Shown piece by piece: positions 3,656 to 58,433 of a stretch of DNA of 64,000 nucleotides. Source of the DNA: Gracilaria domingensis (taxonomy: Eukaryota; Rhodophyta; Florideophyceae; Gracilariales; Gracilariaceae); NCBI GenBank assembly GCA_022539475.1, contig VCMS01000042.1, forward strand, positions 370,583-434,582, given 5' to 3'. Numbering within the stretch: position 1 is the first letter of the stretch; the number at the start of each line of letters is the position of its first letter. The position numbers and the translations under genes were made by a program. Below the pieces are notes generated by a model. That model did no database searches and had not been told where the DNA came from. It saw nothing but the letters and a program-made list of their open reading frames with translations.

Positions 3656-3657
3656 AG

Positions 3658-19007: not shown

Positions 19008-19081
19008 AGATAGTAGCATAAAATTATTGTTTATTACAATGTTACCTTTATGTGTTATCAAAACTATATTCTCCGTCTCCA

Positions 19082-26580: not shown

Positions 26581-26619
26581 ATGAAATGAATATTTGATTG
26601 AATGCACTCAAACTTTTGA

Positions 26620-26820: not shown

Positions 26821-26892
26821 ATTCTTTCTCCCAATTCCACGTAAAACCAACTCACCTCTTTTTCGGTCAGTATCATTGATTCGTATGGGCAG

Positions 26893-30961: not shown

Positions 30962-31561
30962 ATGTTTTTTGTTCTACAAAACCCTACAACCTCCACAACA
31001 GTTCGACCGAAAATACCTCAAACTGATGCATTTGTTCTCTTTGGGTGTCTCAGTGAGATCTCTTTCTCTGGAATTGGTACCCCAGTTTTTCAACGCTTTA
31101 TCGACATCATGAGAGGACGTGTTTATTTTGCAAGCAAGCAGATATTGGAAATGGTTCTATTGAGCACGTACAGGGCAATTTGCTACAGTTTGAGATGTAA
31201 AGTTATCAAGCGAAGACTGGATCGCTTATATTCGATGAATGGAGTGCATCTTTGCGCGCACCAATTACGGGTGTGACGTGGCATATTTTGGACAAAACAA
31301 AGCTGCTGCGCTTTATTCCGGTTACCATCTTGAACTTCGAAGGCTTATCAAAGAATGTCCAACATTTGTGCGACTTGTTTACGTGAGATTTTTTCAACTA
31401 ATCCTCTTGTTAGATCAGATGATATTTGCATATCTACACTGACTACAGATAGTGAACCTGCTACACCAAAGGCCGTAGACTCGTGTACTGAACAGACGTG
31501 TGGTGTTCGCTGTGTTCTTCACAAGATGGTACTACGTCTGTGTTTCCCGAACGCTATGTAA
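30962..31561 (+). pseudogene. second hAT-like transposase fragment
   Basis: Plus-strand pieces in different frames show the family order. SFSGIGTPVFQRFIDIM (about 31055) matches the hAT phrase around pfs.ve...F. GSLIFDEWSASLRAPITGV (about 31215) matches the first catalytic-aspartate region (FD.WSS). LTTDSEPATPKAV...RCVLHKMVL (about 31437) matches TTDNASNM...RCFAHTLNL. It lies in the opposite orientation to the neighbouring relic, so it is either a different insertion or an inversion. Confidence 0.55.
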
Positions 31562-31962
31562 AGAGGCTAGAATGCTATTTTGTGGATTGAATCGTTAAAA
31601 AATGTGCAAAGAATTGAATGAACGGCTATGTGCAAGACAAAAAAAAATTTTTTTTGGATACCATACTTTCATTTATTCAAGCAATACTACAGAATTTGTA
31701 GAATCAGTGAAAGCAGACATAATTGCTAGTTCACCTCCATGACATGAAAGTTTTTGTACCTAGTATACTCAGACGGATTAGGTGGTAGCTCGATCTGGAA
31801 GCTACCAACGGCACTTGCATACTTGTCGATTGCAAATAAACATAAATAATGAATGTAAACTAACTCTGGCTAGTACAACATTCATGTAATGGTAGTTGCA
31901 CACATCCATTCCCCCACCGCTTTTCTACCTCCATCAACCCGGCAACTACTGTATCACCTCAA
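31562..31962. other. spacer with an A-tract/T-tract
   Basis: No gene is seen. A run of A immediately followed by a run of T lies at about 31640-31657. Confidence 0.4.
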
Positions 31963-32775
31963 TCAAAGTAAAGCACCTTCATCTCCTTCCTCTACCTCCA
32001 CATCCGCGAATGATAGCGTACGAAATTCTTTCCCATCATCATTCTCAACGGTTTCCTCCTCATCCTCCACAACATCCTCCCAGCTCCACTTCTCCTCGTA
32101 TCCAACAACACTGCTCCCTTTCCACACCGGCTTCGGAACAGTCCTGAACCCAACCCGTGTCCTCTTCTTACTATCCCCTTTTCCTTTCTTGTTCTCCACC
32201 TTCGGCTGAATTTCATCCTCTTCTACCCCCACACTCCTTGGTTGGATCGGCCTCTTCTCGCTAACCTTCCTCTTTAGACCTCTCTTCCTCACCAATTCTC
32301 CCTCCATCACCTCATCCGCCCCAAAACTATCCGTCGCAGGTACAATGTCTCTCGCATTCTCGTCCTTGCTTCCGATGCACACTCCTACCCCAACGCCGTT
32401 CACGATCTTCGTCTTCGGCGCCGGAGTTACCGGCGTTCCCTCCACACCCCCTACCCCGCCCTTCTTCCTCCCATTCACCTCCTTCGAGCTCCCCTCCAGA
32501 TTCTCAATGCGTTTCATCATCTTCTTCTGCTCCTCTTTCGTCCCCCTCAGTTCCCTTACCACGAACCCTGTCACCTTCTTCGTCAGTCGACCTACGTCCT
32601 CTCCCATGCGCGTCCCCATCGCCTCGGCACACCCCAGCACTGCAGAGGCCCACCAGTTCAGCTCGTCTTTTTCTTCCTCCTCCTCGAACACACTCTTTAA
32701 CTTCTTGTGCGACCGTACCCCTTCGTCCGACTCCCACGGCCACCTAATGTTCGAACGCGAATCGTCATCGCTCAT
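31963..32775 (-). CDS. charged nuclear-type protein with coiled coil, unrecognised
   Basis: An intact 270-codon frame starts at ATG 32775. Residues 1-40 are acidic with a WPW motif, and 41-98 form a helical segment ending in a coiled coil (TKEEQKKMMKRIENLEGS). Residues 100-135 are glycine/valine-rich, and 160-215 hold basic nuclear-localisation-like patches (RKRGLKRKVSEKRP). The C-terminus is acidic. It is one of the few undamaged frames in the window. It diverges from the membrane-protein gene that starts at 33416, with about 640 bp between them. No known domain is recognised. Confidence 0.6.
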   Translation of the reverse strand: MSDDDSRSNIRWPWESDEGVRSHKKLKSVFEEEEEKDELNWWASAVLGCAEAMGTRMGEDVGRLTKKVTGFVVRELRGTKEEQKKMMKRIENLEGSSKEVNGRKKGGVGGVEGTPVTPAPKTKIVNGVGVGVCIGSKDENARDIVPATDSFGADEVMEGELVRKRGLKRKVSEKRPIQPRSVGVEEDEIQPKVENKKGKGDSKKRTRVGFRTVPKPVWKGSSVVGYEEKWSWEDVVEDEEETVENDDGKEFRTLSFADVEVEEGDEGALL

Positions 32776-33415
32776 GGTCGCGTTGGTAGAAGATCTGGTA
32801 AAAGAGCAAAAGGGATATCGAAAGAAGAGAAATCAGGGAAGCCGAAAAGAACAGAACTCGCTGATCGTTCCTTCGCAAACCGATCACGGTGTACCAAGGG
32901 TAGACGCTTTCGTCCCATGACACTGTAGTACCGCCGCACCCGCTCATATCCGTCCAACCTCTGCATCGCAATTATTTTCATATTTACTAGCACAATTCTT
33001 CACTTTTGAACACTCTCTATGCTTCTCATTCTCCATGTTCTCCCAACCGTTGCGAGAAGGGCGTCCCTTTTCATACATGGTTCATACCAGTAGTATATGA
33101 AATGAAATCCTACCACTACCATCATATCATGATTCTTCCGTCCTCTTCATCGCCCTACGTTTTACTCTTCATGTACTCCGTCTCTTCATAGCTTTTCCAT
33201 CACAGAAGCTAAGTTCGCCACTCGTTTATGAAAACCTTCTTCACTTCAAATTTACAAGCCTTAAAGGAAACAAAACATAGATATAGCTCCTTCGATACAC
33301 CTCTTTATAGGTAATATCTGCTCGTTTCGTTCTCAATAAATATATCTTCTCCTCGCCCCTTCTTTCTTCATTTCTTCTCCTCTTTCCTACCTACTCACAG
33401 GCAGCAGAGCTCACA
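32776..33415. promoter_or_regulatory. divergent intergenic region
   Basis: The spacer separates two intact divergent genes and must hold both promoters. Before the plus-strand ATG there is a pyrimidine-rich stretch ending in ctactcacag (about 33390-33400), which could be the acceptor of a 5' UTR intron, and a TATA-like tttatagg near 33303. No specific factor site can be named. Confidence 0.4.
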
Positions 33416-34618
33416 ATGGCCTTCCAAAACACCCACAAGGTATCGCATGTACAGCTTCGCAACCAAACTGCTCTCATACCTATCCATCTCAACGCATTTC
33501 CCCATAGGACATACATCACCTTTGACGACTGCCTTCAACTGAAGTACGACGTTGACACCGGGGAAGCCACGGTTCGAGGAGTCCAGACCCTTTTATCCCC
33601 CGAACTGCTGGATGAACTCAGTGATGTTTATGACATACTTCACGAAGTTTCAAATCATGACCGAATCCTTGAACATCCTCCCTTCTTCCACACAATTGGG
33701 AATCTTTCAGAGCTACCCAACTACATGTCAGAGGCTCGGTCTTATTCACATAATCCCCTGAAAATGCTCTCGCTATCCTCTCTCTTGGCATTCTCCCTCT
33801 TCGTTTCAGTAGTCATAGGGGCTCTCTATGGGATTATAAAGCCTCTCACAACACACGCTCTTCTCTACGATCGCTCCTCCCGCCAAACACAACTGGGATT
33901 CACCATCCTGTACAGCATGCTCGAAACTATGTTTCACATTATTCTGTTTGAATTGGCATTCTCTCTTCACGCCACAAGGTATGGTAGACTCGCATATGGT
34001 CCAATGACTCCGTCGCACACATCCAGCACCGTTTCGGCACTGAGGAATAAATACCTCGGCATGGGCATCGGTGGGCTTATCGTCCTCAACCTCTCTGTCT
34101 TCGTCACCTATCAGCTCCGTCCTCCTCCAATCGATGTCATGGATTCTCTCAAAACTGCATGTATTTCCTTCTTCCCCGGCGGTTTCTTCTTCGGCTTCTT
34201 CACCATTCTCATGAACACATTTCGGATCTATTTCTCTACAAAACATACGTTCAACAACATAGTTCCGCTCTCCAATCGGGTGGTATACCGGAGAAGAGGG
34301 CTAAATCCGTACTGCCGTTGTATTCTAAACTCGTTCCGGAAAGCTTTGTTCCTTCAGGATTTCCTGCTTTCTATCAGACTTTTTCTGAACAGAGTGGTCC
34401 CAGTTTTCTTCGCACACACACTCTCCGAGTCTTTGGACCCCGAATCCTTTGGTTCGTACAGAGGTATCCCGCCCCTCCTCACAAACACCTTGTTCATTGT
34501 ACTACTTGTATGCTCCGGAGTCGCAAAACACGCACCAAGAATCAACGCAAAGCGATACTTGTGCGCCATTGGTGAGCACCCTAGACCCCCGACACAACAT
34601 CTACTGCCTTCTGGCTGA
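33416..34618 (+). CDS. multi-pass membrane protein, unrecognised
   Basis: An intact 400-codon frame begins at ATG 33416 in a favourable context (cacaATGgc). The first 120 residues are soluble. Six hydrophobic segments follow: about 125-148 (SSLLAFSLFVSVVIGAL), 167-190, 213-235 (MGIGGLIVLNLSVFV), 244-272 (FFPGGFFFGFFTILM), 315-336 and 350-373. The topology suggests a polytopic membrane protein, possibly of an internal membrane because no signal peptide is evident. No transporter or receptor motif is recognised. Confidence 0.65.
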   Translation: MAFQNTHKVSHVQLRNQTALIPIHLNAFPHRTYITFDDCLQLKYDVDTGEATVRGVQTLLSPELLDELSDVYDILHEVSNHDRILEHPPFFHTIGNLSELPNYMSEARSYSHNPLKMLSLSSLLAFSLFVSVVIGALYGIIKPLTTHALLYDRSSRQTQLGFTILYSMLETMFHIILFELAFSLHATRYGRLAYGPMTPSHTSSTVSALRNKYLGMGIGGLIVLNLSVFVTYQLRPPPIDVMDSLKTACISFFPGGFFFGFFTILMNTFRIYFSTKHTFNNIVPLSNRVVYRRRGLNPYCRCILNSFRKALFLQDFLLSIRLFLNRVVPVFFAHTLSESLDPESFGSYRGIPPLLTNTLFIVLLVCSGVAKHAPRINAKRYLCAIGEHPRPPTQHLLPSG

Positions 34619-34895
34619 CGTATTCACCAAGTGCGAGACAAGTAGTATACGAACATAAGTACATAACTGATACATGTTTCAACTAAACAGAATCTCTTCT
34701 CTACAAACATAGTTCCCACTTGTTCATGACGCTCTCCAGGATTGAAGTGTTTGGTATGGTATCCTATCTTACCCTTCAATCTTGGGTAGAGTCGTCGCTT
34801 CCACAATTCTTAAACTTTCTCTCGATTCACAAGATCATTTACTTCGAAACTATATTCGACACATAGATTACTACAAAGTTTCATCACATATTCAC

Positions 34896-37800
34896 TCAGT
34901 CCTCTTCGCCATCCTCAAGATCGTTTTCAATCTCCTCCACTTCATAATTCTCATCTTCGTCATCTTCTTCATACTGTTCTTCCCCTTCCTCTACTATCAC
35001 CTCATCATTTTCCTCCTCCAAATTCGACGGTTCTGGATTCTTCCTCTTCTCCTTCATACTAACCAGGTCTTCATCCTCCTTGAACTGAGGTCGAAAGTGT
35101 TGGTTAAGGTGTACCGCATCCGGGAGGTTGTATTTCTCAGGTACCATGTACATGTGGTAACGAAACAAGGGAATCTCGGGGAATCTTCCATCCTTATTTG
35201 AAGCGCCTGCATGGAACACATCACCTCTTCCAATAAATATAGACTTAGGCGGAACGAAAAACTTCCTCACAAACATCCCCCGTGCCAAACCTTCAAATGC
35301 CTTGGGAGTAACTGCGTAGTGTGTATGAGACCCTTCACATACCCAAATTGGAAACGACACACTTCCGGACACCATCATAAAGTACCCCGGGTTCTTCTTT
35401 TCTTCCAGCTTATCCTCATTCGCCAAGGTCGGGAAATCCGTATGTAACTGCTGCCGCTTGCATCCAACTGCAGTGCATAACACCCTCCCCCCCGTCTTCG
35501 GCGCATACATCCTCTCCTTTTCCACCCTATTATCTTGTAAACCCATTAAAGCACATATCTGTCCCAGTCGGGCATCCAGTAAAGCTCTCTTCTTCACAAG
35601 CACATGTCTTTCTACGGCTGCCTCCATGTCATCCACTATGCCTCTTCTCGTAGTCATGTACCTCCCACCATCTGCGTTGATGATCGGTATCCATGTGATT
35701 CGGTTCTCTGGTATCCTAAGGTCTGGAACCCTCTCGAAGTCCCTTCGGAAGAAGTCCAGTAATTCCACACTAACATCCCCGTCAATGAGCTTGCTCAAAC
35801 TCTCTGTCAGCTTCACCAACTCTCCATCCGATGCAAAGCCGTCCAGAGTACAGAAACCTCTGTCTCGAAGCTCGACGTTCTTCTTCACAAAATAGACATA
35901 CGCAAGAGAGTCGTTCTTCAGTGCATCCCCCCATAACGTCTTCTCGTCGACCTCCATGCCTCCCATTGCCGCGTTCAGGAGTTTATGGCCATGATACGCT
36001 GCATGCCAAAAGACTGCATGGTGCACACTTTCAAAGTCCTTGGGCTCCAACAAGTGGCCTCGGTGTTGCTTCTGGAGATGTATCGCATCCATCCACGGGT
36101 ACACAGATTTAATGACATTCTCCACCCCAGTCGGCCACTTGCTTGGTAAGGTCTTCACCAACTTTAGCCACGAATCGTCACCTTCATATGCTACTTCTTC
36201 AGCCTTCTTCAGACCTGGCGCCAACACCTGCGGTACTGTGTCATCGAACGGGTCAGTGTCCTCTGCCTGTGAGACCACAATTGGTACTCCATCTGAGTCT
36301 GTGTCGCTGCCAATGGATATCTGATGACTTTTCAACAAGTTTCTCACCCCCTTCGCACCAAGACTCCGCAGATGACTGATAACTTCATCCTGAACAGATT
36401 GAATACCCTCCGTCCTTGACTTCTTCCGTTGATTAGGGTTCACGTCTCTCATTGCATTCCTTCGTCGACGGCTTCGTCTTGATCTCCTCATGCTTCTTGT
36501 CTTCGATGGCATATTCTCTTCACTTTCTACATCAGAGTCCTTAGAGCTCTTGCGCACTGGCGCTTTGGCCTTCCTACTTGCCGAACGTGTGGCCATTCTC
36601 TGCGTTGTAGACTCGTCTACCGCTTTGGTCTCAGACTGTGGTTCAGTCGGCGTAGTACCAGTGGCAGGTTTCAACATATCCACCCCTAAACTCTTTGCCA
36701 GCTTATCACGAGCAATCCAGACTCTTCTCGAAATCCTTCCTTCCCAGAGCTTCTTATTCGAAGGTACTTCAATTCGTGCTGCCTGTGTTGCAAGGTACTC
36801 ACGAACGGTGCGCATTTCAAACTTTGTCACTTCCACCTTCATGGCATACGCTTCTTCCAATGTAACTTTCTTCTTCTTCGAAAGCTCCTCTGCCAAAGAT
36901 TGAAGCCTCCTGCAGCAGATAAAGAAGTATTTGCGTACGTCTTCAAAACGACCCGTCAGTTTCGACACTCGCCTCCTGGAAAAGTATGCAACCACAGCGT
37001 CGAGCGTGAAGTGGGTTGTATGCTCATCCATGGTAAAGAATTCATCACTTGATATACAAGAAATTCCAATCTCATGGTAGTCTCCACAAATCCGCTCCAA
37101 ATGTTCCAGCAATCCAGGACTTCTCGCCACCTTCAACCCCATCTCTGCAAATCTTGCCAAATGCTTGATATTGTACTGGCCAATGATACCGCAAACACTT
37201 AGTGCACCTGCGACAGAGGTCCTCGTCATCTTGCTCAAGTCCTTCTTCTCTTCCTCAACCAGGACCCTTATAAATGACACAATAGAATGCACCTTGTCAG
37301 CAAAACCCATAAGACGAGCTTGCTTCAATCCATCGTTTAGCACATTGCCAAGGCTCAAGATTTCCCTCGTGGTCATCTTCTGTCCATCTTTTCTCTTCCA
37401 CAGCGAAACAGAAAGACCTCCACATAGATTCCTAATGTTGGGCATAGATTCACAGAGCTCTTTGAGTGCTACATGACGATGAGCTCCATCAATCAGCACA
37501 CAATTCACTTTCAAGCGATTGTTCTGCACTATGTCCTTCTCGGACACATCCTGAGACAGAACAGCAACGCTCATGGTCCCAAGTGCCTGTAAGAAGCTTT
37601 TGCGTCCAATCTCTTCTTTCAGAGCCTCGACATGATTCCGGAACAACCCTCTCACAGTCATTTCAGGAACTTGAATGAGCTCAATATGGACTTGAACAGA
37701 CACATACTCGTAATGATCTAAGTCAAATACCAAACTCGCTAAACTCGTATCGACATCATCAGGAGGTATCACATCACCTTCATCAAAGAGTTCATTGACG

Positions 37801-38744
37801 TTGCTTCCAAGGCTTTCCTTCACTAGAACCACGTCTTCGTCTTCGTCTTCATCCACGTCAATCACTTCTATTGTCACTCCACTGCGATTTCCAGCCTGAG
37901 TAATAGCTTCCGCAGTGCTGTTCCTCGATGCTCCAGACTGCACAATCGTAGCAGTTTGTTTACGAAATGCCGATACAGCACTCTCTGGGGTCGTGGTCAT
38001 CTTGAATTCTTGCATCTGCTTTCCACCACCGTGAACGTTCGATGGTGTTTTCAGCTTTGGTACTGGCGCTTGTTTCCCGCCTTGGGGTCTTTTTAGCATT
38101 CGACGGGGTTTTCACATGAGCCACGTTCATCTGCATTCGCTTTCGGGCACTGGATGGAGTTTCAGGTTCTACCACTCGCACCCGTTTCCCAGCAGTATTC
38201 GATGGCTTCTCAGGGGCGACGAATTTGGAATTCGGAGCACCCTTGTCCCCTTCATCAGCGCTTACGACGTCACCCACCTTAGACATTAAGTTCAGGTCCC
38301 AGGCGTAGAAACCGGGCCTGTTCATGTCCTTCAATGTCTTCGGAACAGAATCTTCATCGGTACACTTAAAGGGATAGAGATAGGGAGTGTCAAGCTCATG
38401 AGATATCTTCGCTCGCCATATACCAACTACATCTTCCCCTGGTTTTCCCTGCAGAGCATGTCCATGCACTTCCCTTCTGAACGTTGTCTTCCCTCCACCA
38501 GCGTCCACTTAACGAGAACAGCTTTCCCAATCGCTGCTTTGTTCCCTCCTGCCCCTCCCAACAACAAGGTCACTTCTTCGCCTGGTGCGGGCTTCGACTT
38601 CATAGCTGTGGATGCGTTCCCCGTCGCTGCGTTCGGTTCAGCAGTTTTGGTCCCGCTCCGAAGTTGTGGTGCCATGGTTCGTCGAGGCTTTCTCACCTTT
38701 CGAGAGCGTCTCATTTGACCCTTTCCCAGTCCCCTCATATCCAT
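34896..38744 (-). CDS. ParB-like domain / 2OG-Fe(II) oxygenase-like fusion protein
   Basis: The main frame (38099-34896) codes for 1067 residues. Residues 140-330 resemble the ParB/Srx fold, with the signature VLIDGAHRHVALKEL (about 201-215) in place of the family's G-x-H-R motif. Basic serine-rich linkers follow (about 490-570). The C-terminal region about 800-990 shows HxD at 886-888 (LHTDFP), H963 (GDVFHAGA) and R980 (FRYHMYM), the iron and 2-oxoglutarate ligands of Fe(II) dioxygenases. The tail is strongly acidic. Upstream, two further frames (38508-37960 and 38876-38427) overlap it and read as its N-terminus, starting near 38744, with frame changes near 38090 and 38470. These may be sequence errors. 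It diverges from the methyltransferase-SET gene. A DNA- or histone-modifying role is inferred. Confidence 0.65.
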
Positions 38745-39026
38745 TATATGGTGCCAGTGTGTGTGATATACACGAGTCCTGGTGTTCTTCAAATCGTACG
38801 TTTGCTCCCGTGAAGTTGCAACCGCTCGTGTTCGAATCTCCGCCCTTTCTCGCGTGAGCACAATGGACGCAACCACTCACGTTCAAAACGGCTGCAATGC
38901 CCACGTGAGCAGTGTTAGTACAGTTCCTGATGGTTATAAATAGTTGGATCAATGTCTGATTCCGTCCTGATTGACCACTGTCCCCGCCTTTCATCATCTT
39001 TGAACATCGCCCGAGCGCCGTGTGGA

Positions 39027-39098
39027 AACCGCGGTTCGCCGAGTTCATAGCCGAGATCATAGCTATGATCTCGGCTATGAACTCGGCGAGCCGCGGTT
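39027..39098. repeat. 72-bp palindrome in the left arm
   Basis: The two 36-bp halves meet between 39062 and 39063 (gagatcatag/ctatgatctc) and are inverse complements with one mismatch. There is no spacer, so the sequence can form a cruciform or a perfect hairpin. Confidence 0.95.
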
Positions 39099-39520
39099 CC
39101 GGCACGGCGCATCTGACGAAACGCCACGTGTATACCGCCGAAAGGACCCCCCCTGAGGACCCCCTGGAGACCACTTCTACTACACAATGCGCACCAAAGC
39201 ACCTGTTCTCACCCACACCACCACTACCTGGTGGTGTTGCTGGCGTTTATGTGGGCAGTGAATAAGTGACGCCCCGTCGATGGCCGCCGCCCTCCGTGCG
39301 CTGCTCCGCTCCCACCGCATCGTCTCTCCTCCTCAAGCCCTTCCCCTCCGTCTTCCACGCTTGCTACACAATGTGTCCGAAGTGTCATCCGCGTCTCCAT
39401 CGCTCTCCCGTTTATTCGACGTTACTGCCCACATAAACGCCAGCAAGGGGTCCTCCAGGGGGGTCCTCAGGGGGGTCTTTCGGCGGTATACACGTGGCGT
39501 TTCGTCAGATGCGCCGTGCC

Positions 39521-39596
39521 GGAACCGCGGTTCGCCGAGTTCATAGCCGAGATCATAGCTATGATCTCGGCTATGAAGTCGGCGAACCGCGGTTCC
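39521..39596. repeat. 76-bp palindrome in the right arm
   Basis: The halves meet between 39558 and 39559 and pair over 38 bp with one mismatch, at a different position from the mismatch in the left palindrome. The sequence is otherwise the same as at 39027-39098. Confidence 0.95.
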
Positions 39597-39905
39597 CACA
39601 CGGCGCTCGGGCGATGTTCAAAGATGTACGAACCCAGTGTTTTCTACGTTGGTTTTACATACTAGACATATAATGCACTGCACATACTAGGTGCCCCACC
39701 GGTTTGATGTGTTTAGATCCCACTCTCGTCTCTCTATTTCATTACCCGCTTAGTTCTCGGTAATCCGTCGCAACCGCGCTCTCCACCATTGTTTCCGACG
39801 CTTCCCGACGTTTCCGACGCTTCCCACCCATTTAAACATCTCCGAAACTTCTACCGTTTCACAATACTCGTTTACTTCGCGTCCTTTCCGATTCTCAGTT
39901 CTTAC

Positions 39906-42900
39906 ATGGCGTCCACCGGAAATGACGCTCCTCGGACTGTTAAGCAAGTGTGCTGGCCGATGAGAACCACGGCACGGTATCCTCTAGCGCATCCTCTAGC
40001 GCGTCGTTCGATTCAGCCAGCATGGCAACGCGTTTCTTGAAATGTTGGGGGTTTTCATTGAGTTGCAGATGCGTATGCCGCTTCAAGAAGTGGTACTGGT
40101 AATCCGCGTGAAGTTGGGTACACGGAAGTTGTGGAATACGCTGTATCAAACCGTGAACACCTGGCATGTGCACGAGAGTTCATCACCACTGCGGTCAAGG
40201 GTCCTTTCCAAAACTACTCCGCAAAAGAACTCACGAAGATCTGTCTGGACGTGCGTTTTCTGAGCAGGGTCTACAAATATACGCGTATCACTGATCTAGA
40301 CGACGAGAATTCTGATCGGCGCGTGAGAGATTTGTTTACCTGGAGTCTTGAAAAGGATGTCGACAACGGTAACTCGTTCATAGAACGGGCTTTCTGGAAT
40401 GACCTTTTCAAACGACATGGTCCAGGCAGTAAGCAGACGAAGAGAACTACGTTCAGGATTGGGCCTCCCACTCGTTTTCAGCAGTTACTCTATCTCTCTT
40501 TCGTGAAGCATATAACTTCGGAGAGAAATCTCCCAGCGGCGAAGAGAGGAAGGACCGGGAAGGGAACCCATAGAGCTGTGCAGTTCGTCGACGGCTACAT
40601 AGCTTCGAATGAGACGCACGGGAGACGGATGGCACATGCAGTGCAAACGATTTGTAAGGGATGGGATTTCTTTGCCTCAACCTTAGGCTTTGGTGATGGT
40701 GAGCAGATGTTGCTGCCATACCTGCTTGTAGAAAAGAAGTCGCTTGGGTTCCATGTCATTGAATCCCGCTCTGTTGGGTACAGTCCGGAGTCAGCTTTTC
40801 ATACGTTGGGGGAAGAACTGAAACCCACGTTGGATGTAACGACACCGTTTCTTGGGTTCATACTCTTCCGGATACTATCGACGCCAACTTACGGGAGTTG
40901 GCAAAGGAATTCTTGGCAGATTTCAGCAAGATTGTGTTGAATGGCTTCCTATACAAAATGTCCCCAACGTCAAGATGGAATTTGTTGGAAAGCTTCAGAC
41001 CTGGCCGCCCCGCACGAGTACCACCCCGTTTCAATGTATTCTCCGAAGAGTACGTGTCTCCTATTCGTCAAGCGATGTCTGTACATAACTTCCAACCATC
41101 TCGACTTATCCCTAGGGCCGCTCCTTCAGGGCAGGATGGAGGAAGTAATACCGTCACGGTTAAGGTTGAGGACTCGATACAGATTCCGAGCTCCTCCAAG
41201 AGGAACGCCGCAGGGAAAAGCTCAGTTAACTCCGATGTCATCGTCATCCTCGATAGCGACAATGAAGAAGGTGATACACCTGGTGCCTCTGTTGGGGCGA
41301 AAGATAACGTTCCAGATGGGGTTCTCCCCCCTCATGACTTTGATGACACGCGCACGTTAAATGCTCTAGATGTGGTGCGAGGAAGCATGGAGAAGCAATT
41401 CTCAATGCATTGTGTCGGATATGACGAACTGGTGGAGGCCCATGGTACTATCTTCCCATCGGATACATCTTTGGAAGGCAACGTTCAGTTCGTGCTCACA
41501 GACCCACCATATGGCATCCGCGACAGCGAGTACGACGAATTGGCTGACGATGATATGGACAATACTGCGGACATCATGGCATCCATGCTTCGACCAGGAG
41601 GACATTTCGTTTTGTTCTGCAGTATCGACCAGTTTGGAGACTGGGAAGAGATTTTGCGAGAGCACAAGTCGGAGGACGCAAGCGGAAAGAAAACCGCATC
41701 ATTCTTAGTGGATTCGACGCCCATGAACTTCATTCGTTCTCGTTCGAACCCCTTGAAGAACCCTGCGCGTAATACTACTCGCCTGTTTGGGGCGACGGAG
41801 TACGCCGTGCATGGCGTGAGGAATGGAAACCCGTACGCGGAACAGAAGGTAATGGTGAACTATCAGAACTTCAACTACGTTTCAGCTCGCTATCCTGGGC
41901 ACTATTCTATCATTGACCAGGTTCCAAATCTTACGCCTGGGGAGAGTCTCCGATGGAGAGTGAAGAGTGGTAGAAGAATTCGAACCGCGAAGGCTCGTCC
42001 AGAACAAAAGTCGAGGCAGCTACTGATGGAGCTGATAGCGAGGTTCTCGAATCCCGGGGATGTTGTGGTTGATCTCTACTCCGGGACGTTCTCGTGCGCG
42101 CTGGCATGTATGGATATTGAGGGGCCTCGGCGTTTCATTGGATGTGAGCAAGATGAGCAGTGTTTCTCTCATGCCAAGCACAATGCTATTGTGCATTACG
42201 CAAGAAAGGTGTGGCGCAATGAATTGAAGATGAAAGAACCGGTTACGAATGAGGTAGTTCAAGCGTCTTATGTGGTGGATGCCAAATTTCCTGAACGGAA
42301 ACGAAAGACTTCGACTATATGGAATGCACCCAAGGGATTCCCATCGTACCAATCTTTCCCATTCCATATCATGTCGTACCTATCCACCTATTGGAATGAA
42401 CCTGGTCTTATCACTACGTACAAAGAGAAACCGTTCCATGAGTGGCCACTTGCCTTACAAGGGAAGATGACTACGTTGGACAGTCACACTTTACTCTCTG
42501 TCGAGGCGACATCGCTATGGCTCTATGTGAAGAAGTCGAATATCAAACATGCAGCAAGTGGAAATGGAGTATTTACGAGTAGGGCGTTTTCCGAAGGGGA
42601 GGTTATTGGATACTTTTATGGGACCTTGGTGTATCATGATCTAAGCCGACGCAATACCACACATTTGACGTATGGAGACGGAATGCTGGGGGCCACTGCA
42701 TCTCGGTTCAGGAAGTATTGCATGCAAGTGAGGGTGAAGGGGCAAATGTACAACACTCTCCCGCATTATGATACTGAAGTCAACGCTGGTCATGCCTGGA
42801 TAGTTCCTGCTCCTTTCTGTGTAGCGGGCTATATCAATGACGCGTCATATCGTGAAGGTGATGAGGACAAGGAATTGGAAGAAATGGATTCTAACATGGC

Positions 42901-43068
42901 ACGCAAACCAAATGTATTCATTCGCCAGCCACAGAGTATCAGGCTACAACTTTGGGGCTTTTGGAGAACTACAGACTCCTCGTAGTCACGGCCTCAAGGG
43001 ACATTAAGGAGCACGACGAAATTTACGTTGACTATGGACCCACATATCCTTGGGAAAGGTTAACCTAG
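39906..43068 (+). CDS. beta-class DNA methyltransferase / SET-domain fusion protein
   Basis: The gene reads in three frames: before about 40850, then 40850-42930, then 42930-43068. The start at ATG 39906 is approximate. The N-terminal 270 codons are unrecognised. An acidic SUMO-interaction-like motif (VIVILDSDNEE) lies near 41240. The catalytic motif DPPYG is at 41501, followed later by the AdoMet-binding motif VVVDLYSGTFSCALA at 42059. This IV-before-I order is that of beta-class amino-methyltransferases (N6-adenine or N4-cytosine). The SET domain runs from GVFTSRAFSEGEVIGY (42566) through AGYINDAS and KPNVFI to EIYVDYGPTYPW just before TAG 43066-43068. SET domains methylate protein lysines. 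The last frame change is absent from the second copy of this region, so it is probably a sequence error. Confidence 0.75.
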
Positions 43069-43531
43069 GTTCTCAGACAATGTCCTTGAACTTCGTATGG
43101 GCTCAATGTAGTGAGAAAAGCTTTTTGTTGAAGTAAATTGTATTGAACACTTGTGCTATGATTGCAGAAATACTACTCATATGTACACTCAAGCTGTACT
43201 GTGTAACATATTGATGCATATAGTGGTATGAAAGATCGTTGAAAGTGCCGTACTTGTATATGCAGGGCGCAACATCCGGGAAAATCGGACCAAGTCCGGA
43301 ATATGGACCCGGGAAAGGTCCAAAATTGAATGCCGATCCGCCACAAATGCTGCAGAATGCTTTTCTCCATATATGCAGTACGAGGTTAAATTCCCCTCCC
43401 CTTCACATATCAGTCCTGCACACCGAGTACGTGACCCTCACATATCACTCTCAATCATATACCTTCAGTATCGTTCACGTTTCTATATCTGTTCCGTAAT
43501 ACTACCGCGCACGAAGGCCGAAGGATCTCGG
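43069..43531. other. intergenic spacer
   Basis: The spacer lies between the SET stop and the next gene. No gene is seen; it is repeated in the noisy copy at about 48950-49400. Confidence 0.45.
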
Positions 43532-46000
43532 ATGGCCCCTCAACGTGCGGAGCATGCAGGTGGTAAACCGCGAAAGGCATCGGTACCGCCGGAGCGCTGG
43601 GATACTGGGGTGGCCAAACGTAGGAGCGCGGTCGTCTCACGAAGTAGTGCTACTAATGGGAGAGGTAGCCGAGCCGAGCACCTCGTGCTGGACTTCGCAA
43701 ACCAAAATCTTCATCTACAGTATCGGAAGTAAAACCGAGAAGGAGGTCAGGAGCTTCCACATGCACTACGGAACGCACAGTAAGTGAAACCGTTCAAGCC
43801 AAGGATAGTGCAATGCGTGGGCCTGTTACACGCCACATGGCTGCAATGGAAGAGCCAAGGGTCAGTGATGATGGAAATGTAGATGTCAAAGCGATGAAAG
43901 GAAATAAGAGAAGAACGGCTGTACGTCAGAATGTAAGGAGGACAAGAGGCAGTGGAGGAACAGAAGGTCCTCGTATCGATGATTGTTTCGACAAGGTGAG
44001 AACTGCGGATGACAATGCGGAGATGGAAACCGTGGATTGCGCCATCGTGAGAGCCGAACCTAGAGCCGAACCTGGGGATAGGGAGATACCCAGAAGCGCT
44101 GCCGGAACAGAACGTAACAGTTATGATTCGAGAAAAGTGAAGAGGAACGAGAAAATGAATGAGGGTGTCTCTCGTGCCAAGAAAGGCAGTGGAAGAAAGG
44201 AGCGGGAGTCCACGGACGCAGTAGATATCCCAAGTGACGTCGAGGACAAGGATAACGTGGAGGCGAACGATAACGTGGACGCCGGAAATGCAACGCATAT
44301 GGCTCCCATCGAAGGCAGGCATGATTCCGTCCCTCATATTGGGTCCAGACACAAGGAAGACGAAGACGAAGACGAGATACAACCGACACCAGTCACAGGT
44401 GAGTCACAGAGAAACAGGTTCAATCAGGTCAGAAGAAGGACGAACCATGGAAATGAGAATAGACGGGTGGGGAACGATCGGCAACCTGTCATAGCAAACG
44501 CCCGTAGAGAAGTATGGAACGATAAAGATGTTGATCGTGGTGCTTTGTCACGGAGCTTTTCCCTGCATGGTGCAATGGAAGAAGATGAAGATGAATCCCT
44601 TACTCCGCGATACGAGCTTTTGGAAAAGATCGGGAAACTGAAGGGAGATCTGTATCGTACAATAGAGGACAAGCAAAGTCTGAAAATGAGCGTACGACTT
44701 GCTCAGAAGAACATAGAGCAACTGGAGGTTAAGGTCAGAGAACAAGAGGTTCTCATACACTCTTTGAGAGAGGCTCTCAGACGTGGAGGGAAAAGGAACG
44801 AACGTGACAGTAACAAGAGCAGGAAGCAGTACAACATTGACGTGAACGACGAGTTTGTTGGTGTTGCGAAGACCGTCTATGACTCCATACTTCAATACGC
44901 CAAAGACGAGACAAGAGAGCTATGCTTCGAGATGAGTATACCGGCAAGGAACTGGGGCAACCGAAGTGAGACAGTTGGACCTGAGAAAGACGACAGTGTG
45001 CTGGTTGTTGATGGGAAGGAGATAGTGCCACGGTGCCCAATGGATCTTGCCATGGAGATGAGGGCGTACACGCCATCCGTACGTGGTGGGGCGACCATTT
45101 GTTGATGCAAATTGTGGAGACGGAGGTAATGAAGCCACGTTGGGAATCTATCCGAGGAATGAAAATGGAAGATGACTGTGTGAAACAGTTAACGCACGAC
45201 ATTTGTTTGCGCAGAAGGTTGAAACAGGCTTTAAGTGATGCAATAAGTGTTCGAAAACGGCAAGCGAAGGAGAAGTTATTGATGGGACTAGGTTACGACA
45301 TGCTTGTAAGGACCGCGATAAAAAATGATGAAAGGGAGCAGAACAAGTATGAAATACAAACCAGAGAGGTACGTGAAAAACTCCTACCCAAAGATGCAAA
45401 TGGATGTGAGATTCTGTCGTCGTGGAGAACTCAGAAGGTAGAAGATATATGTTTCTCGGGCTTTAACCCATATCATGCAACCGAAGATGAACCATGTGAC
45501 TTGCTTTTTCGGAACAGCCTGAGCTTGGAGGTGCTGCGTGAGTTCATGGGCTACGACGTTTTACAAACAAGTTCGAGGAATACCGAAGAGAGGGATCCAG
45601 TGGATGGAACAATTATGCATCCGGCACGTCTTGATGCTGAATAGCGTCCGTTATTCGCGCGACAGAGTCGGAACGAGGGAGAGGTGGTAAGAGAAAAGTG
45701 TTGTTCTCCAACTTGTTCGGGAAATATCTACCACTGGCACTTGAGAGTATACTGAAGACCGTGAGGGTCCGCATGCAGCAGAGTTATCCAACAGAGTTCA
45801 GAAATGGCCCATCGAATGCTGAAGATGCGCGGCATGGAAATGATGACCGGGTGGGCACTGTGGTTTACTGGATTCCGTCGAAAAGGAAAATGTACCTTGC
45901 TGTCCGAGAAGATGTGTTTATGGGAGAGATCTCTGAGAAGCTCGGAGCTGTACTGGATTGCTATGTTGGATGCTGCAGTCGGGGAGACCGTATGTTCTAG
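43532..46000 (+). CDS. charged coiled-coil protein in several frames, unrecognised
   Basis: The largest frame is 43813-45105 (430 codons). It has a long Arg/Lys/Asp/Glu-rich low-complexity region, an acidic run (KEDEDEDE, about 44355), a coiled coil (EKIGKLKGDLYRTIEDKQ... through EQLEVKVREQEVLI, about 44620-44760) and a globular end. An N-terminal piece starting at ATG 43532 (MAPQRAEHAGGKPRKAS) precedes it in another frame; CAGTAAGTG near 43778 might be a splice donor. It continues in other frames at 45080-45644 and 45690-46000 with protein-like sequence (REFMGYDVLQT, VVYWIPSKRKMYLAVRED). It is downstream of the methyltransferase-SET gene on the same strand. The frame changes may be errors or real lesions. 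Confidence 0.45.
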
Positions 46001-46097
46001 GACATAACTGCAGAGAGGGATGTGAGGGAAAGGTCTGTGCAAGAAGGATTACATGAGGAGAATTGGATAGAACGTCACTAATGCATTATGGTTTACG

Positions 46098-47460
46098 TTA
46101 CGAAAGTTTGGTGATTGGATGGTAGTGTAAACGAGCTCGGGGATTGCGATAGAATCTGTTAATGTAGAATCGGTGGAACTTCCAGTGCAATGGAGGGAAA
46201 AAGGGGCGTGCGGGATAGTTTTGTCGGAGGATGTGTACCGAGCCTTTGATCGAAGAGAATGGGACGAGACCGAACCATGGGGATACAGATGCAGTTGTTG
46301 ACCGTTTTAGAGAATTGGAGGTTTGCAATGTGTGATCTTCCTCGTCATCCGTGGCCCAGCGGACGGAAATGCAGTTCAAGGATTCGTCAATGTTATCCAA
46401 CGGCTCCGTTACCTCGAAGAAGCGAACAAAGGCAAATTCAGAATCGGAATTGCTTTGGTTACATCTGCTAAAGCGAACCAGGGCAAAGACTTTGCATACC
46501 CATGCGGTCGGGAAGTCACAACCGGGAGGAGGAGTTCCATTAACCAGGACGGTAGAGAATTTTGGGGACTTGGAAGGGCCGAAAGAAGTGGTTGCAAAAA
46601 TACGTTCACACAAAGAGACCTCCGGCTCTCGCAGTCTAATGCATTGAAAGTGACGATCGTAGTCATCCAGCGAGGGGCAGAATCCAGAAACAATTTAAGC
46701 GGAGTTAACGACGGTGATTTTGATGTCATGGGGGTTGTCCAACGGTTGAAGAGTTTCTAAGCTTAGGGAACGGAAGGAAGAGAGGGCGTCGCGAGAGATT
46801 TGGTTGATGAACTGCAATGTAGTTTTGGAGAACAAATCTGTGAGAGCAGATGACGGGACGTTTGGATGGGACCGTAGATACTTGTCGGCCGTGATGATGT
46901 CGAAGAGGGAGAATGAACTACCATCACGAACCATGGAGGGACACCGCTGCGACAAACGACTGGCTGAGTTGGTAGACATGGAGAAGTGTTTCCTTACCGA
47001 GATGGAGTGTAAGAAATCCTGCGACTCTTGGATTGAGTCCACTGTTTCCTTATGCGCAGTTGATCTTCTGCGAGAGGTACGGCGGTAGTGGTTCTTGAAG
47101 AGGAGATGCGCGTGCTCGTACACACCTGCATCACGAAATGGAGGCCTCCGTATCGACGGATGTCTGGAATGATGTGATCCAGGAGATGGAATTTTGAGAG
47201 TACGAAAGTTGGAGGCCTGGTATGGACCAAAACTGAGACAGTTTGAGTCTTGAAGTTCTTGATGAGAGTCTCCAAAGAGCGTAAGCGATCATCAGTCCAT
47301 TCTGGGGCAGTGTGGTAGTGAAGAACGTTATTGACGAGATCGACGCTAGAGGTGGAAAAGGGTGGTTATTGGGCGGGAGCAGACTTTCACCGCAAGCAAC
47401 GGTCGAGAATGCACCGATTGAAGGGGAAGGCACCATGTCGAGGGCGCGATTAGTCCTTTG
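46098..47460 (-). CDS. unrecognised protein split over several frames
   Basis: Overlapping minus-strand frames (47436-47131, 47275-46994, 47123-46695, 46729-46409 and 46613-46098) each hold a protein-like segment and join where they overlap. An example is VLVHTRPPTFVLSKFHLLDH, then RKHFSMSTNSASRLSQRCPS, then FAFVRFFEVTEPLDNIDESL. The pattern is of one protein of about 400 residues with four or five indels. It converges on the coiled-coil gene. No domain is recognised. The same segment is present, noisier, in the copy to the right. Confidence 0.4.
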
Positions 47461-47598
47461 CTTCTAGCATTACCTCTGATTCCGTCAGTCGGGGAAGGAA
47501 GCCGTTGAGAGACTTACCCTTTTCAGATGTCTAAGAAATCAATATGAAGCCCTGGAGCCGGGAAACGAGCGTTCGATGGTCAGCTAGGATGGAGTTGG

Positions 47599-47881
47599 NN
47601 NNNNNNNNNNNNNNNNNNNNNNNNNNNNNNNNNNNNNNNNNNNNNNNNNNNNNNNNNNNNNNNNNNNNNNNNNNNNNNNNNNNNNNNNNNNNNNNNNNNN
47701 NNNNNNNNNNNNNNNNNNNNNNNNNNNNNNNNNNNNNNNNNNNNNNNNNNNNNNNNNNNNNNNNNNNNNNNNNNNNNNNNNNNNNNNNNNNNNNNNNNNN
47801 NNNNNNNNNNNNNNNNNNNNNNNNNNNNNNNNNNNNNNNNNNNNNNNNNNNNNNNNNNNNNNNNNNNNNNNNNNNNNNNNN
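47599..47881. other. assembly gap (283 Ns)
   Basis: The run of N is the only gap in the window. The sequence to its right repeats sequence already present to its left, so the gap size does not represent real distance. Confidence 0.99.
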
Positions 47882-50800
47882 GCTGATAGCGAGTTCTCGA
47901 ATCCCGGGGATGTTGTGGTTGAATCTCTTACTCCGGGACGTTCTCGTGCGCGCTGGCATGTATGGATATTGGAACGGGCGTCGGCGTTTCATTGATGTGA
48001 CAAGATGAGCAGTGTTTCTCTCTCATGCCAAGCACAATTGCTATTGTGCACTTACGCAAGAAAGGTGTGGCGCAATGAATTGGTGAGAGCTACGAATGAG
48101 GTAGTTCAAGCGTGGTGGATGCCCAAATTCCTGAACGGAAAACGATAAGACTTCGACTCATAATGGATGCACACCAAGGGATCCACATCGTCAACAAATC
48201 TTTTCCGCATTCCATATCATTGGTCGTAATCTATCCACCTATTGGAATGAACCTGGTCTTAACTAACGTACAAAGAGAAACCGTTCCATGAGTGGGCCAC
48301 TTGCCTTACAAGCGGAAGACTGAACTACGTTGGACAGTTCACACTTTACTTCTGTCGAGGCGACATCGCTATGGCTCTATGTGAAGAAGTCGAATATCAA
48401 ACATGGCAGCATGTGAAATGGAGTTATTTACGAAGTAGGGCGTTTTCGCGAAGGGGAGGTTATTGATACTGGGTTATATGGATTTCCAGTGGTGTATTCA
48501 CATGTCTAAGCGAACGCAATACCACACATTTGGACCGTAATGAGGAGACGGAATGCTGGGGGCCACTGCATCTGCGGTTCGGAGGAAGTATTCGCATAGC
48601 ATAGTGAGGCTGAAGGATCGGGCACAATGTACACACTCTCTCCGCATTATGATACTGAAAGTCAACGCTGGTTCATGCTGGATAGTTCCTGCTCTTTCTG
48701 TGTAGCGGGGCGCTATATCAATGACGCGTCATATCGTAGAAGGCGATGAGGAAAAGGAATTGAAGAAATGGATTCTAACATGGCACGTCAAACCAAATGT
48801 ATTCATTCGCCAGCCCACAGAGTATCAGGCTTACTTTGGGGCTTTTGGAGAACTACAGACTCCTCGTAGTCACGGCCTCAAGGGACATTAAGGAGCACGA
48901 CGAAATTTACGTTGACTATGGACCCACATATCCTTGGGAAAGGTTAACCTAAGTTCTCAGACAATGTCCTTGACTTCGTATGGGCTCAATGTAGTGAGAA
49001 AGCTTTTTGTTGAAGTAAATTGTATTGAACACTTCTGCTATGATTGCAGAAATACTACTCATATGTACACTCAAGCTGTACTGTGTAACATATTGATGCA
49101 TATAGTGGTATGAAAGATCGTTGAAGTGCCGTACTTGTATATGCAGGGCGCAACATCCGGGAAAATCGGACCAAGTCCGGAATATGGACCCGGGAAAGGT
49201 CAAAATTGAATGCCGATCGCCACAAATGCTGCAGAATGCTTTTCTCCATATATGCAGTACGAGGTTAAATTCCCTCCCCTTCACATATCAGTCCTGCACA
49301 CGAGTAGTGACCCTCAATATCTCTCAATCATTACTTCAGTATCGTTCCGTTTCTATATCTGTTCCGTAATACTACCGGCACGAAGGCCGAAGGATCTCGG
49401 ATGGCTCCTCAACGTGCGGAGCATGCAGGTGGTAAACCGCGAAGGCATCGGTACGCGGGAGCGCTGGGATACTGGGGTGGCCAAACGTAGGAGCGCGGTC
49501 GTCTCACGAAGTAGTGCTACTAATGGGAGAGGTAGCCGAGGCCGAGCACTCGTGCTGGACTTCGCAACCAAAATCTTCATCTACAGTATCGGAAGTAAAC
49601 GAGAAGGAGGTCAGGAGCTTCACATGCATACGGAAGCACAGTAAAGTGAAACCGTTCAGGCCAGGATAGTGCAATGCGTGGGCCTGTTACACGCCACATG
49701 GCTGCATGGAAGAGCCAAGGGTAGTGATGATGGAAATGTAGATATCAAAGCGATGAAAGGAAATAAGAGAAGAACGGCTGTACGTCAGAATGTAAGGAGG
49801 ACAGAGGCAGTGGAGGAACAGAAGGTCCTCGTATCGATGATTGTTTCGACAAGGTGAGAATGCGGATGACAATGCGGAGATGGAAACCGAGGATTGCGCC
49901 ATCGTGAGGCCGAACCTAGAGCCGAACTGGGGATAGGGAGATACCCAGAAGCGCTGCCGGACAGAACGTAACAGTTATGATTCGAGAAAGTGAAGAGGAA
50001 CGAGAAAATGAATGAGGGTGTCTCTCGTGCCAAGAAAGGCAGTGGAAGAAAGGAGCGGGAGTCCAGGACGCAGTAGATATCCCAAGTGACGTCGAGGACA
50101 GGATAACGTGAGGCGAACGACAACGTGGACGCCGGAAATGCAACGCATATGGCTCCATCGAAGGCAGGCATGATTCCGTCCTCATATTGGGTCCAGACAC
50201 AAGGAAGACGAAGACGAAAACGAGATACAACCGACACCAGTCACAGGTGAGTCACAGAGAAACAGGTTCATCAGGTCAGAAGAAGGACGAACATGGAAAT
50301 GAGAATAGACGGGTGGGGAACGATGGCAACCTGTCATAGAACGCCCGTAGAGGAGTATGGAACGATAAGATGTTGATCGTGGTGCTTTGTCAGCGGAGCT
50401 TTTCCCTGCATGGTGCAATGGAAGAAGATGAAGATGAATCCCTTACTCCGCGATACGAGCTTTGGAAAAGATCGGGAAACTGAAGGGAGATCTGTATCGT
50501 GCAATAGAGGACAAGCAAAGTCTGAAAATGAGCGTACGACTTGCTCAGAAGACATAGAGCAACTGGAGGTTAGGTCAGAGAACAAGAGGTTCTCATACAC
50601 TCTTTGAGAGAGGCTCTCAGACGTGGAGGGAAAAGAACGAACGTGACAGTAACAAGAGCAGGAAGCGGTACAACATTGACGTGAACGACGAGTTTGTTGG
50701 TGTTGCGAAGACCGTCTATGACTCCATACTTCAATACGCCAAAGACGAGACAAGAGAGCTAGTGCTCGGAGTTGAGTAACCGGCAAGGAACTGGGGCAAC

Positions 50801-56700: not shown

Positions 56701-57200
56701 TCGAGTCTACACGCGGAACTGTTTAGCGTGATTTTGCGAGAACGCACGGAGACGGATTTGGCAGAGCATGTTAGGCGTGAATGTCTTGGCGGGGGCCTAT
56801 GGTAAGTTCTGAGGAAGCTTTTTGTCGACTTTGATGTGAACTCGCTAACTGGCTAATGTGTGTACTGTCGTATTGCGTAGGGCTTTGGGACAGTTTAGTG
56901 CGTGTTGATGCGAGGTTATTGGTGAGGTAGTTCGGACACATGGTGTAGTGCGTGGTTCATTTGAGAATGTTTCGAAGAGCTGAAGAGTTAGCTAACGGTA
57001 TATCTGTTTTGCATCGCGCCGCGCGGGGCGTTTGCGAACGATGTAGCTGCGTATTACGTTCATGGCGTCTTATTATCAGCGTTGCAGGGATCTTTCGGTA
57101 TCTTGGAAGGTGCGATTCTGGTAAGCCGCATGCGGAAGGTGCGTGGATTACACTTCAATTTGCAAGTTATCAGCATTGATATCACTACGCTTTACAATTT
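53741..57200. other. noisy sequence, not interpretable as genes
   Basis: The error-rich sequence continues beyond the duplicated part with no long frame on any strand. Splice-like and coding-like fragments may be present, but indels prevent annotation. Its last part (about 56810-56990) resembles the clean sequence at about 57480-57660. Confidence 0.55.
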
Positions 57201-57343
57201 CTGTTAGGATCAGAGATTACGTTCTCTCATGTGTACAACGTTGTTCTTCTCTCTTGTGAGGTGAATGTGGATATCAAAAAGAGGAAGACTTGGTTACGAT
57301 GTGGGTGCCGTTGGGTTTCTAGCGGAATCATGCTAATGACCCT

Positions 57344-57453
57344 GAACTCTGACGAACAAGAGTTTGGGGTCATGGAAAGAATGATTACCTCAACGGAGGC
57401 CTTCCAGGTAATCATTCTTTGCCATTAATCCAAATTCTTGTTCGTCAGAGTTC
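57344..57453. repeat. long hairpin with arms of about 48 bp
   Basis: The left arm, gaactctgacgaacaagagt (57344) to gaatgattacct (57390), pairs with the right arm aggtaatcattctttg (57406) to cgtcagagttc (57453). There are a few mismatches in the middle and a 15-base loop around ggaggcc. The shape fits a small foldback element, a small-RNA precursor or a read artefact. Confidence 0.85.
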
Positions 57454-57479
57454 GGTGTGGATGGCAAGGTACGCGTCGG

Positions 57480-57930
57480 GGTAAGTACGAGATGTTTTTT
57501 GTTCGAGTTCTGATAAGAATGCTAACTGGTTACTGTTTTATGTGTATGTGCAGGATTTTCGGGACAGTTTGATTCGTGTTTTCGAGGCTATTGGTGAGGT
57601 AGGGACACATGGTAAGTAGATAAGTGTGCATTTGGGAAAGTTTCGAAGATGGAAAAGTATCTAACGGAGTATTTGACTAGCTTGTGTTTGTGCATGTGCA
57701 GGTGCGTTGGATGGCAATGGATCGGTGGCGGTGCTGGAAATTGTGCATTTGAGATGTTTTCGAGGGAGTTGGGGAGATGAAGATGGCGAAGAATGTTGAG
57801 GTAAGTGTGTTTATTTCCATATTGGGATGGACGAAGAGACTAGGCAACAGAAAACTAACCAAGGGGATGTCTACATTGAGGGCAACGAGAGCATTTCAGG
57901 GTATCTATTCGGTGAGTTTCGATGCGTAAT
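57480..57930 (+). CDS. intron-containing gene fragment, unrecognised
   Basis: Consensus splice sites are dense. GTAAGTACG near 57481 leads to ...tgtatgtgcag at 57553. Exon 57554-57611 (DFRDSLIRVFEAIGEVGTH) ends at GTAAGTAG. The next acceptor is ...catgtgcag at 57701, then exon 57702-57800, ending at GTAAGTG. The exons are short and introns are about 70-90 bp. In the phase set by the first exon, the second contains a TGA four bases before its donor, so either the gene ends there or an indel is present. The 5' part lies in the noisy region. Confidence 0.4.
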
Positions 57931-58433
57931 TGTCTTCCAAATGATACAGGGCTTCTTTGGTGATGTCAGAATGGATTTTCGGGGGTGAGAAGTAGGGTGG
58001 AGATGTGTACGATGACCGGTTTGGACCTGTTTTCATGTGGTGCTATACCTTGCATGAACCTGCAATACTGCATCAATAACATTCATTTCTGCTAGGATGG
58101 AACTTCCACCGTGCTTTCGGACCGATGGCTCTTTTGGACCGATGGACCGGTAGTACTAGTGAACTAGCAGAAATGGAAGTTAGTTCTAAGATTCTAGCAA
58201 CTTTCATATTTCTTAGAAATACCTCGTAGTTTGAAAGTCAAGCCTAGTATTCCATTCAAACCATACTGTAGAATCTGGAGTTTACTCTAGTTTTTCTTCC
58301 ACTTCAAACTTCCACTAATCGCAATTTAACATATAAAATACTAGCATTTTTTTCTGCGATTTTTGGACTGTAAACTAGCATCCCGGAAACACGGACGTAC
58401 CCAGCATTCCCTTCGAGATCTAATCCAGAAGGG
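57931..58433. other. spacer with short inverted sequence
   Basis: The stretch has no open frame. Inverted copies of a ctagcagaaatggaagtt-type sequence face each other at about 58080-58100 and 58160-58180, around two repeats of ggaccgatgg. An AT-rich tract follows (58180-58380). Confidence 0.4.

Follow-up and report, generated by a model that had tools for sequence, protein, structure and literature searches.

A giant Plavaka-type DNA transposon of the red alga Gracilaria domingensis carries a predicted methyltransferase-SET gene and a ParB-like, putative oxygenase gene around a conserved palindromic center

In the literature covered here, transposons with epigenetic enzymes bear either TET/JBP dioxygenases, in Dikarya fungi, or SET domains, in oomycetes. 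Several groups of fungal DNA transposons (KDZ, Plavaka, EnSpm, and others) captured TET/JBP dioxygenases, and this was proposed to provide an escape from methylation-based silencing (Kojima 2025, PMC12730594), while SET domains are borne by HarbingerS and MuDR elements of Phytophthora (PMC12730594). Giant Plavaka-flanked repeats with several intron-poor genes are found in Amoebidium (PMC11244446), and EnSpm-Plavaka transposons are mentioned in a green alga (PMC12633428). Here, we analyzed a 64,000-nucleotide stretch of the genome of the red alga Gracilaria domingensis (77.9 Mb, 680 contigs, designated C followed by a number), namely, positions 370583-434582 of contig C42 (VCMS01000042.1), hereafter called the window. 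It contains a giant (~20 kb) cut-and-paste DNA transposon of the Plavaka type, present in dozens of copies, with cargo that seems suited to rewriting marks on DNA and histones. The cargo includes a divergent gene pair encoding a predicted DNA amino-methyltransferase (MTase) fused to a SET domain and a ParB-like protein with a putative 2-oxoglutarate (2OG) oxygenase domain.

The element can be regarded as a probable analogue of the TET/JBP-bearing fungal transposons that uses different enzymes. Both are DNA transposons with an oxygenase, proposed to counter silencing in the fungal case (PMC12730594) and putative in the present one, but the oxygenase-like protein described here has no match to the Tet_JBP hidden Markov model (HMM), carries a ParB-like domain, and is accompanied by the MTase-SET fusion. 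HarbingerS and MuDR likewise carry a SET domain but belong to other transposase superfamilies, and the available sections of PMC12730594, whose main text has no occurrence of ParB, do not mention a fusion to a DNA MTase. The Amoebidium repeats differ by their many tyrosine recombinase genes and tandem clusters of up to 50 kb, with no mention of MTase-SET or ParB in the available sections of PMC11244446. Among literature titles and abstract openings, with subscription literature mostly outside reach, none describes a Plavaka element whose cargo is MTase-SET or ParB-oxygenase. The novelty would lie in the apparent fused DNA-plus-histone writer, the ParB-linked putative eraser, selection of about transposase strength, and the conserved palindromic center.

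To delimit the element, copies were compared by blastn, which gave a repeat unit from ~31.5 to ~58.4 kb of the window. Its terminal inverted repeat (TIR), CGTCTGTGTTTCC.., starts at 31535, while ..GGAAACACRGACG ends at 58397, and TIRs match at both ends in all three copies compared (window, C12, and C277). The right arm contains, in copy L026 (positions 2579-5797), a 1,072-residue frame that matches the Plavaka transposase family PF18759 with 85.3 bits (cut-off, 26.3). A genome-wide profile search yielded at least 123 matches to this transposase (123 scored out of 672 candidates). When all 123 were set against 63 of 72 and 50 of 126 MTase-SET match rows, the 3' side of an MTase-SET lay within 9 kb of 31 of them, on the opposite strand in every case. 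Two further matches (C61:51020 and C505:9598) also have a nearby MTase-SET, which they flank on the other side, and many others, spanning profile positions ~41 to 272, have no MTase-SET among the matches listed nearby. Plavaka elements generate target site duplications of 2 to 3 bp and end in 5'-TGT..ACA-3' (PlavakaA) or 5'-CATCA..TGATG-3' (PlavakaB) (PMC12730594). Termini of the form TGTGTTTCC..GGAAACAC(A/G) are present here, yet at the left ends inspected CGTC comes before them. C277 is flanked by AA/AA, the window unit by TA/TA, and the C12 unit by CA/TA, which leaves a single copy of the three with a clean 2-bp duplication; the absence of a duplication in C12 and the assembly gap spanned by the window flanks both count against the assignment.

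The unit measures ~20 kb in C12, and the window version is longer owing to an N-gap (47599-47881) and a second, partial copy that is ~91% identical to part of the first. The gap and the second copy reflect either the joining of two element copies during scaffolding or a nested or tandem insertion, and the two ends of the window unit may derive from different copies. Because the window copy is broken by frameshifts as well as by this gap, open copies or homologues are preferable for functional work; stop-free longer frames exist in other copies. The initial annotation, which covered only the gene pair and its spacer, had proposed a modification system or selfish element. The pair does sit inside a selfish element, a high-copy transposon larger than the object described, whose transposase, terminal repeats, and further cargo genes had been missed.

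Both ORFs (open reading frames) of the annotated pair exist and diverge from a palindromic spacer. Read in the MTase orientation, the order is a charged ORF (-), a membrane-like ORF (+), the ParB-like gene (-), the palindromic center, MTase-SET (+), coiled-coil-like ORFs (+), and the Plavaka transposase (-). Genome searches returned at least 72 match rows for the MTase-SET ORF and at least 50 for the ParB-like ORF, with fragments included and part of the candidates scored in both searches. The two genes are neighbors elsewhere as well: an MTase-SET is listed within 9 kb for 41 out of 64 segments that match the ParB protein, each time in divergent orientation. The 64 segments combine 42 of 50 rows of the first search (8 second fragments were left out) and 22 places from 60 further rows, and the count also took in all 72 plus 50 of 126 MTase-SET rows, 33 of 105 membrane-ORF rows, and 40 spacers. 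The 23 segments for which no MTase-SET is listed may represent truncated copies, contig ends, or limited candidate scoring.

The first protein of the pair is predicted to be a CcrM-like DNA amino-MTase fused to a SET domain. Its MTase part matches PF01555 and has DPPY ahead of a D-x-[FY]-x-G-T S-adenosylmethionine motif. According to structure listings for homologue P0001, the fold and motif order are those of the beta-class N6-adenine MTases CcrM and M1.HpyAVI; the rows shown were all MTases, so missing SET rows carry no meaning. Unlike these enzymes, the element protein has an extra N-terminal domain, in a separate frame in the window owing to a frameshift (a similar region sits in one frame in P0001), and a C-terminal SET domain. 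The bdelloid rotifer N4CMT (8s9m, 8s9o) differs in being a cytosine-N4 enzyme, and we know of no transposon SET fusion for it. The SET family PF00856 was matched at L026:8829-9938 with 31.1 bits (cut-off, 22.4) and in six of nine two-domain homologues, the other three being sub-threshold; a piece from the second family (L022:186-1190) reached 19.6 bits, under the cut-off, and the window ORF gave no match. Both domains proposed for this protein are supported, the SET domain through a related copy and homologues. We also considered a viral origin of the pair and rejected it: in a scan of IMG/VR with the MTase-SET alignment, 80 of 93 loci were kept among the matches listed, and all 80 match only query residues 157-454, that is, the MTase part.

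The second protein was less tractable. The ParB N-domain fold was matched at modest scores, alongside the GxHR/GERR motif, which we take to be the nucleotide-loop motif of the ParB/Srx superfamily. In the oxygenase-like domain, a metal triad (H886xD888 and H963) and R980 are invariant in four of four sequences and are also kept in copies L021 and L023. This HxD...H...R domain is probably, though not provably, a 2OG oxygenase. Weighing against these assignments, Foldseek gave no hit for the ParB part at an E value of 0.001 or below, the predicted model has a predicted local distance difference test (pLDDT) score below 50 across the oxygenase domain, and that domain has no meaningful HMM or PDB match. 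Of the ParB-oxygenase fusion originally proposed, the ParB part thus held at modest scores, and support for the oxygenase fold does not go beyond the motifs. No match to TET/JBP (PF12851) was found in the protein or its homologues, in searches that divergent TET-like types can evade, and a genome search with PF12851 found none either, its controls being unmatched too. With the oxygenase-domain alignment, relatives were found in none of 86 pattern-matching stretches of viral contigs and none of 34 of prokaryote genomes. Homologue searches with words from the first 500 residues found none, while residues 636-1000 retrieved three. The N-terminal part of one ParB-oxygenase homologue, P0029, appears by eye to consist of two copies of a small domain that is also N-terminal in the ParB protein of L021 and matched no Pfam family.

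We also compared the ParB part with other proteins. Its likeness to the N terminus of P0013 was not significant (BLASTP E value, 0.57; hhalign E value, 0.091, probability 0.6%), and against two prokaryotic-type ParB-MTases hhalign gave an E value of 0.0011 with a probability of only 20%. A DGAHR motif is visible by eye in P0013 and P0022. Because the P0013 and ParB-MTase comparisons are weak, we make no claim of a protein in which this ParB is fused to MTase-SET. Proteins P0024 and P0025 do have a ParB-like domain (PF02195) fused to an N6_N4 MTase (PF01555), as would suit a restriction-modification-like addiction, with the MTase shielding DNA from cleavage by a ParB-like nuclease domain. Here, however, the ParB-like domain is tied to the HxD...H...R domain, and no restriction nuclease family was recognized among the element ORFs scanned, which makes this the least probable of the explanations considered. 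The ParB N-domain-like fold recalls the ParB/VirB CTP (cytidine triphosphate) clamps (for VirB, PMC10770331), from which the element protein differs by its fused HxD...H...R domain; nucleotide use and loading are only candidate features.

The spacer between the two genes holds a 632-bp foldback made of two 182-nucleotide arms, 91% complementary and 268 nucleotides apart, each with a 96-bp palindrome. An 18-nucleotide core motif occurs four times in the window (0.07 expected; four or more in 0 of 100 shuffles). Across the genome, 118 core sites were found with up to two mismatches, compared to none for a reversed control. The inverted repeat travels with the genes: among the best 50 of the 118 sites, compared with a hand-picked list of gene ends, 46 have an element gene within 7 kb. 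The other four (C21:148246, C127:218421, C129:15592, and C184:30018) could be solo centers, decayed copies, or sites near genes missed among the scored candidates. The innermost 34 bases are identical between the window family and C231 save for two center positions (AGCT or GGCC), and this identity persists where synonymous sites are saturated between families. The half-sites of C132 have two and one mismatches. The outer arms diverge between families yet stay palindromic, and family 2 has one full palindrome with a distant half-like repeat.

The spacer also varies in form. Among 40 spacers, the loop is oriented relative to the genes as in the window in 32, is inverted in 6, and could not be assigned in 2; the 6 inverted spacers may stem from one event. 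A single palindrome is found in C25 (copy at 324 kb) and C200, where the loop was lost or never gained. Both the inversion, seen in 6 of the 38 copies that could be assigned, and the collapse to a single palindrome are what recombining foldbacks would give. Together with the ParB N-domain-like fold and the palindromic nature of the parS sites of ParB, they could point to a replication, partition-like, or copy-control module, in which the ParB-like protein and the palindrome would act in excision, replication, or segregation and methylation would mark the replication state. We consider such a module improbable, as no ParA, replicase, or recombinase family was recognized among the element ORFs scanned. 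Moreover, ordinary recombination at long palindromes can give both inversion and collapse; it explains the spacer forms, and no dedicated recombinase is needed.

The element exists as at least two diverged families. The second family shares ~65% protein identity with the first, and its C132 copy keeps the full order from the membrane ORF to the transposase; the stretch of C231 covered yielded no more than the ParB protein, the palindrome, MTase-SET, and a piece of the membrane ORF. Another 11 MTase-SET rows form a third group, which has 35 to 37% identity to family 2 and includes stop-free frames of 1,055 residues in C164, C597, and C47 (positions only), as well as a Plavaka match in C296 that lies ~4.5 kb beyond MTase-SET on the opposite strand. 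To evaluate selection, the ratio of nonsynonymous to synonymous changes (dN/dS) was calculated between families by the Nei-Gojobori method (NG86). Against C132 and C231, respectively, MTase-SET had values of 0.05 and 0.09, the ParB protein of 0.14 and 0.13, and the membrane ORF of 0.13 and 0.10 (88 codons only for C231); against C132, the transposase gave 0.12 and two coil parts gave 0.24 and 0.08. Since synonymous sites are near saturation (proportion of synonymous differences, 0.68 to 0.75), the exact values are soft, and dS was not computable for the MTase N-terminal part. The cargo is thus under purifying selection between families.

These data bear on whether the pair is passive cargo, that is, captured host or viral genes hitchhiking without function for the Plavaka element. 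Recent copies (~97% identity) do decay, with frameshifts, stops in some, and dN/dS of 0.5 to 1.1 for both genes, an observation that also weighs against a functional cassette; within-genome values for the transposase and the coil were not used, as some summed overlapping matches (more codons than the gene length in C200 and C25). Copies therefore decay after insertion, with little constraint from then on. Between families, in contrast, the two genes are constrained like the transposase, and both have homologues from other sources, with 24 to 45% identity; in one such source, MTase-SET P0002 and ParB-oxygenase P0027 are probably on one contig, as they share a contig signature (4 contigs, the longest of 20,528 bases). 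The cargo is therefore maintained, like the transposase, through the lineages that transpose, which suggests that the element needs it and makes hitchhiking a rather remote explanation.

The best reading, to which we assign a probability of about 60%, is an anti-silencing cassette that works on the divergent promoters of the element itself; we infer the enzyme chemistry, the target marks, and ParB-palindrome binding. MTase-SET would methylate an amino group in DNA, most likely producing N6-methyladenine (6mA), together with a histone lysine, and the element would thereby acquire a permissive chromatin signature resembling the pair of 6mA and trimethylated lysine 4 of histone H3 (H3K4me3) at active eukaryotic promoters. 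The ParB-like protein would be recruited to the palindromic center between the two promoters, where its putative 2OG oxygenase domain would remove or oxidize a silencing mark, and both proteins would keep the bidirectional promoter, and hence mobility, alive. We favor this reading because of the proposal made for TET/JBP transposons, the overlap between 6mA and H3K4me3 in the permissive regions of several unicellular eukaryotes (PMC12695648), and the precedent of VirB, a ParB-type antisilencer with site-specific loading (PMC10770331). Trichomonas and Naegleria deviate from the 6mA/H3K4me3 overlap (PMC12695648). Other observations argue against the reading: in Acanthamoeba, 6mA is nearly unchanged under H3K4me3 inhibitors (PMC12695648), which means that coupling between the marks is not obligatory, and the SET domain could equally be repressive. 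No C5 cytosine methylase (PF00145) was matched in the genome, in a search that matched 10 of 14 (prokaryotic) controls and that exon-split genes could escape, which fits a silencing mark other than 5-methylcytosine without proving it. Searches for MT-A70 and chitin synthase gave no match, but their controls were unmatched too, making them uninformative.

Repressive activity, of which both SET and MTase domains are capable, would also suit an offensive cassette that modifies the chromatin or DNA of the host or of rival elements, silencing competitors or steering target choice, rather than the element's own promoter. Retrotransposon-like ORFs seen by eye in the window could be such rivals. The conserved palindrome between the element's own divergent genes suggests action in cis, however, and we consider an offensive role unlikely. 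As for how the anti-silencing cassette might operate, a more specific and rather speculative version is a parS-like center, on whose conserved palindrome the ParB-like protein would load before spreading over the transposon as a nucleotide-gated clamp that delivers the oxygenase eraser outward, while MTase-SET writes the paired DNA-adenine and histone marks. If true, a transposon of a eukaryote would encode a chromatin state that spreads by itself from a nucleation site of its own. Should the chemistry hold, the element would offer a compact natural test of whether DNA adenine and histone methylation instruct eukaryotic expression, because dozens of near-identical intact and decayed copies in one genome serve as internal controls.

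Table 1. Coordinates of the transposon and its features in the window
Feature	Position	Strand	Basis or remark
Whole transposon as assembled	31535..58397	.	TIRs at both ends and blastn against other copies
Left TIR	31535..31554	+	TIR comparison
Charged ORF, 270 aa, no family	31963..32775	-	Recurs in other copies
Conserved ORF, 400 aa, membrane-protein-like by eye	33416..34618	+	At least 105 match rows genome-wide
ParB-like/putative 2OG oxygenase	34896..38099	-	1067 aa; frameshifted N-terminal part reaches ~38.88 kb
Left arm of inverted repeat	38995..39176	.	Contains palindrome 39015-39110
268-nt loop between arms	39177..39444	.	Orientation varies among copies
Right arm of inverted repeat	39445..39626	.	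Contains palindrome 39511-39606
N-terminal domain of MTase-SET	40131..40940	+	Separate frame owing to frameshift
Predicted beta-class DNA amino-MTase + SET	40898..42985	+	695 aa; C terminus frameshifted in window
Coiled-coil-like cargo ORFs	43813..45644	+	430 + 203 aa here; 509 + 349 aa in C12 copy
Plavaka transposase fragments	46098..47436	-	Before N-gap; open 1072-aa frame in copy L026:2579-5797
Second copy, ~91% identical to 42031-46873	47882..52764	.	Lies after gap 47599-47881
Right TIR	58378..58397	-	TIR comparison

Among the other cargo genes (Table 1), the sole match for the membrane-like ORF was to a permease, below threshold and in a related copy. Outside the element, positions 17896-21248 of the window form another repeat, which has the reverse orientation in C231 and C12 and adjoins the MTase region in C166. 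The stretch 21249-31914 is missing at C200, where 21248 is joined straight to 31915. Finally, translations examined by eye revealed Ty3/gypsy-like retrotransposon ORFs flanking the region at 3816-9308 and ~59670-63430.

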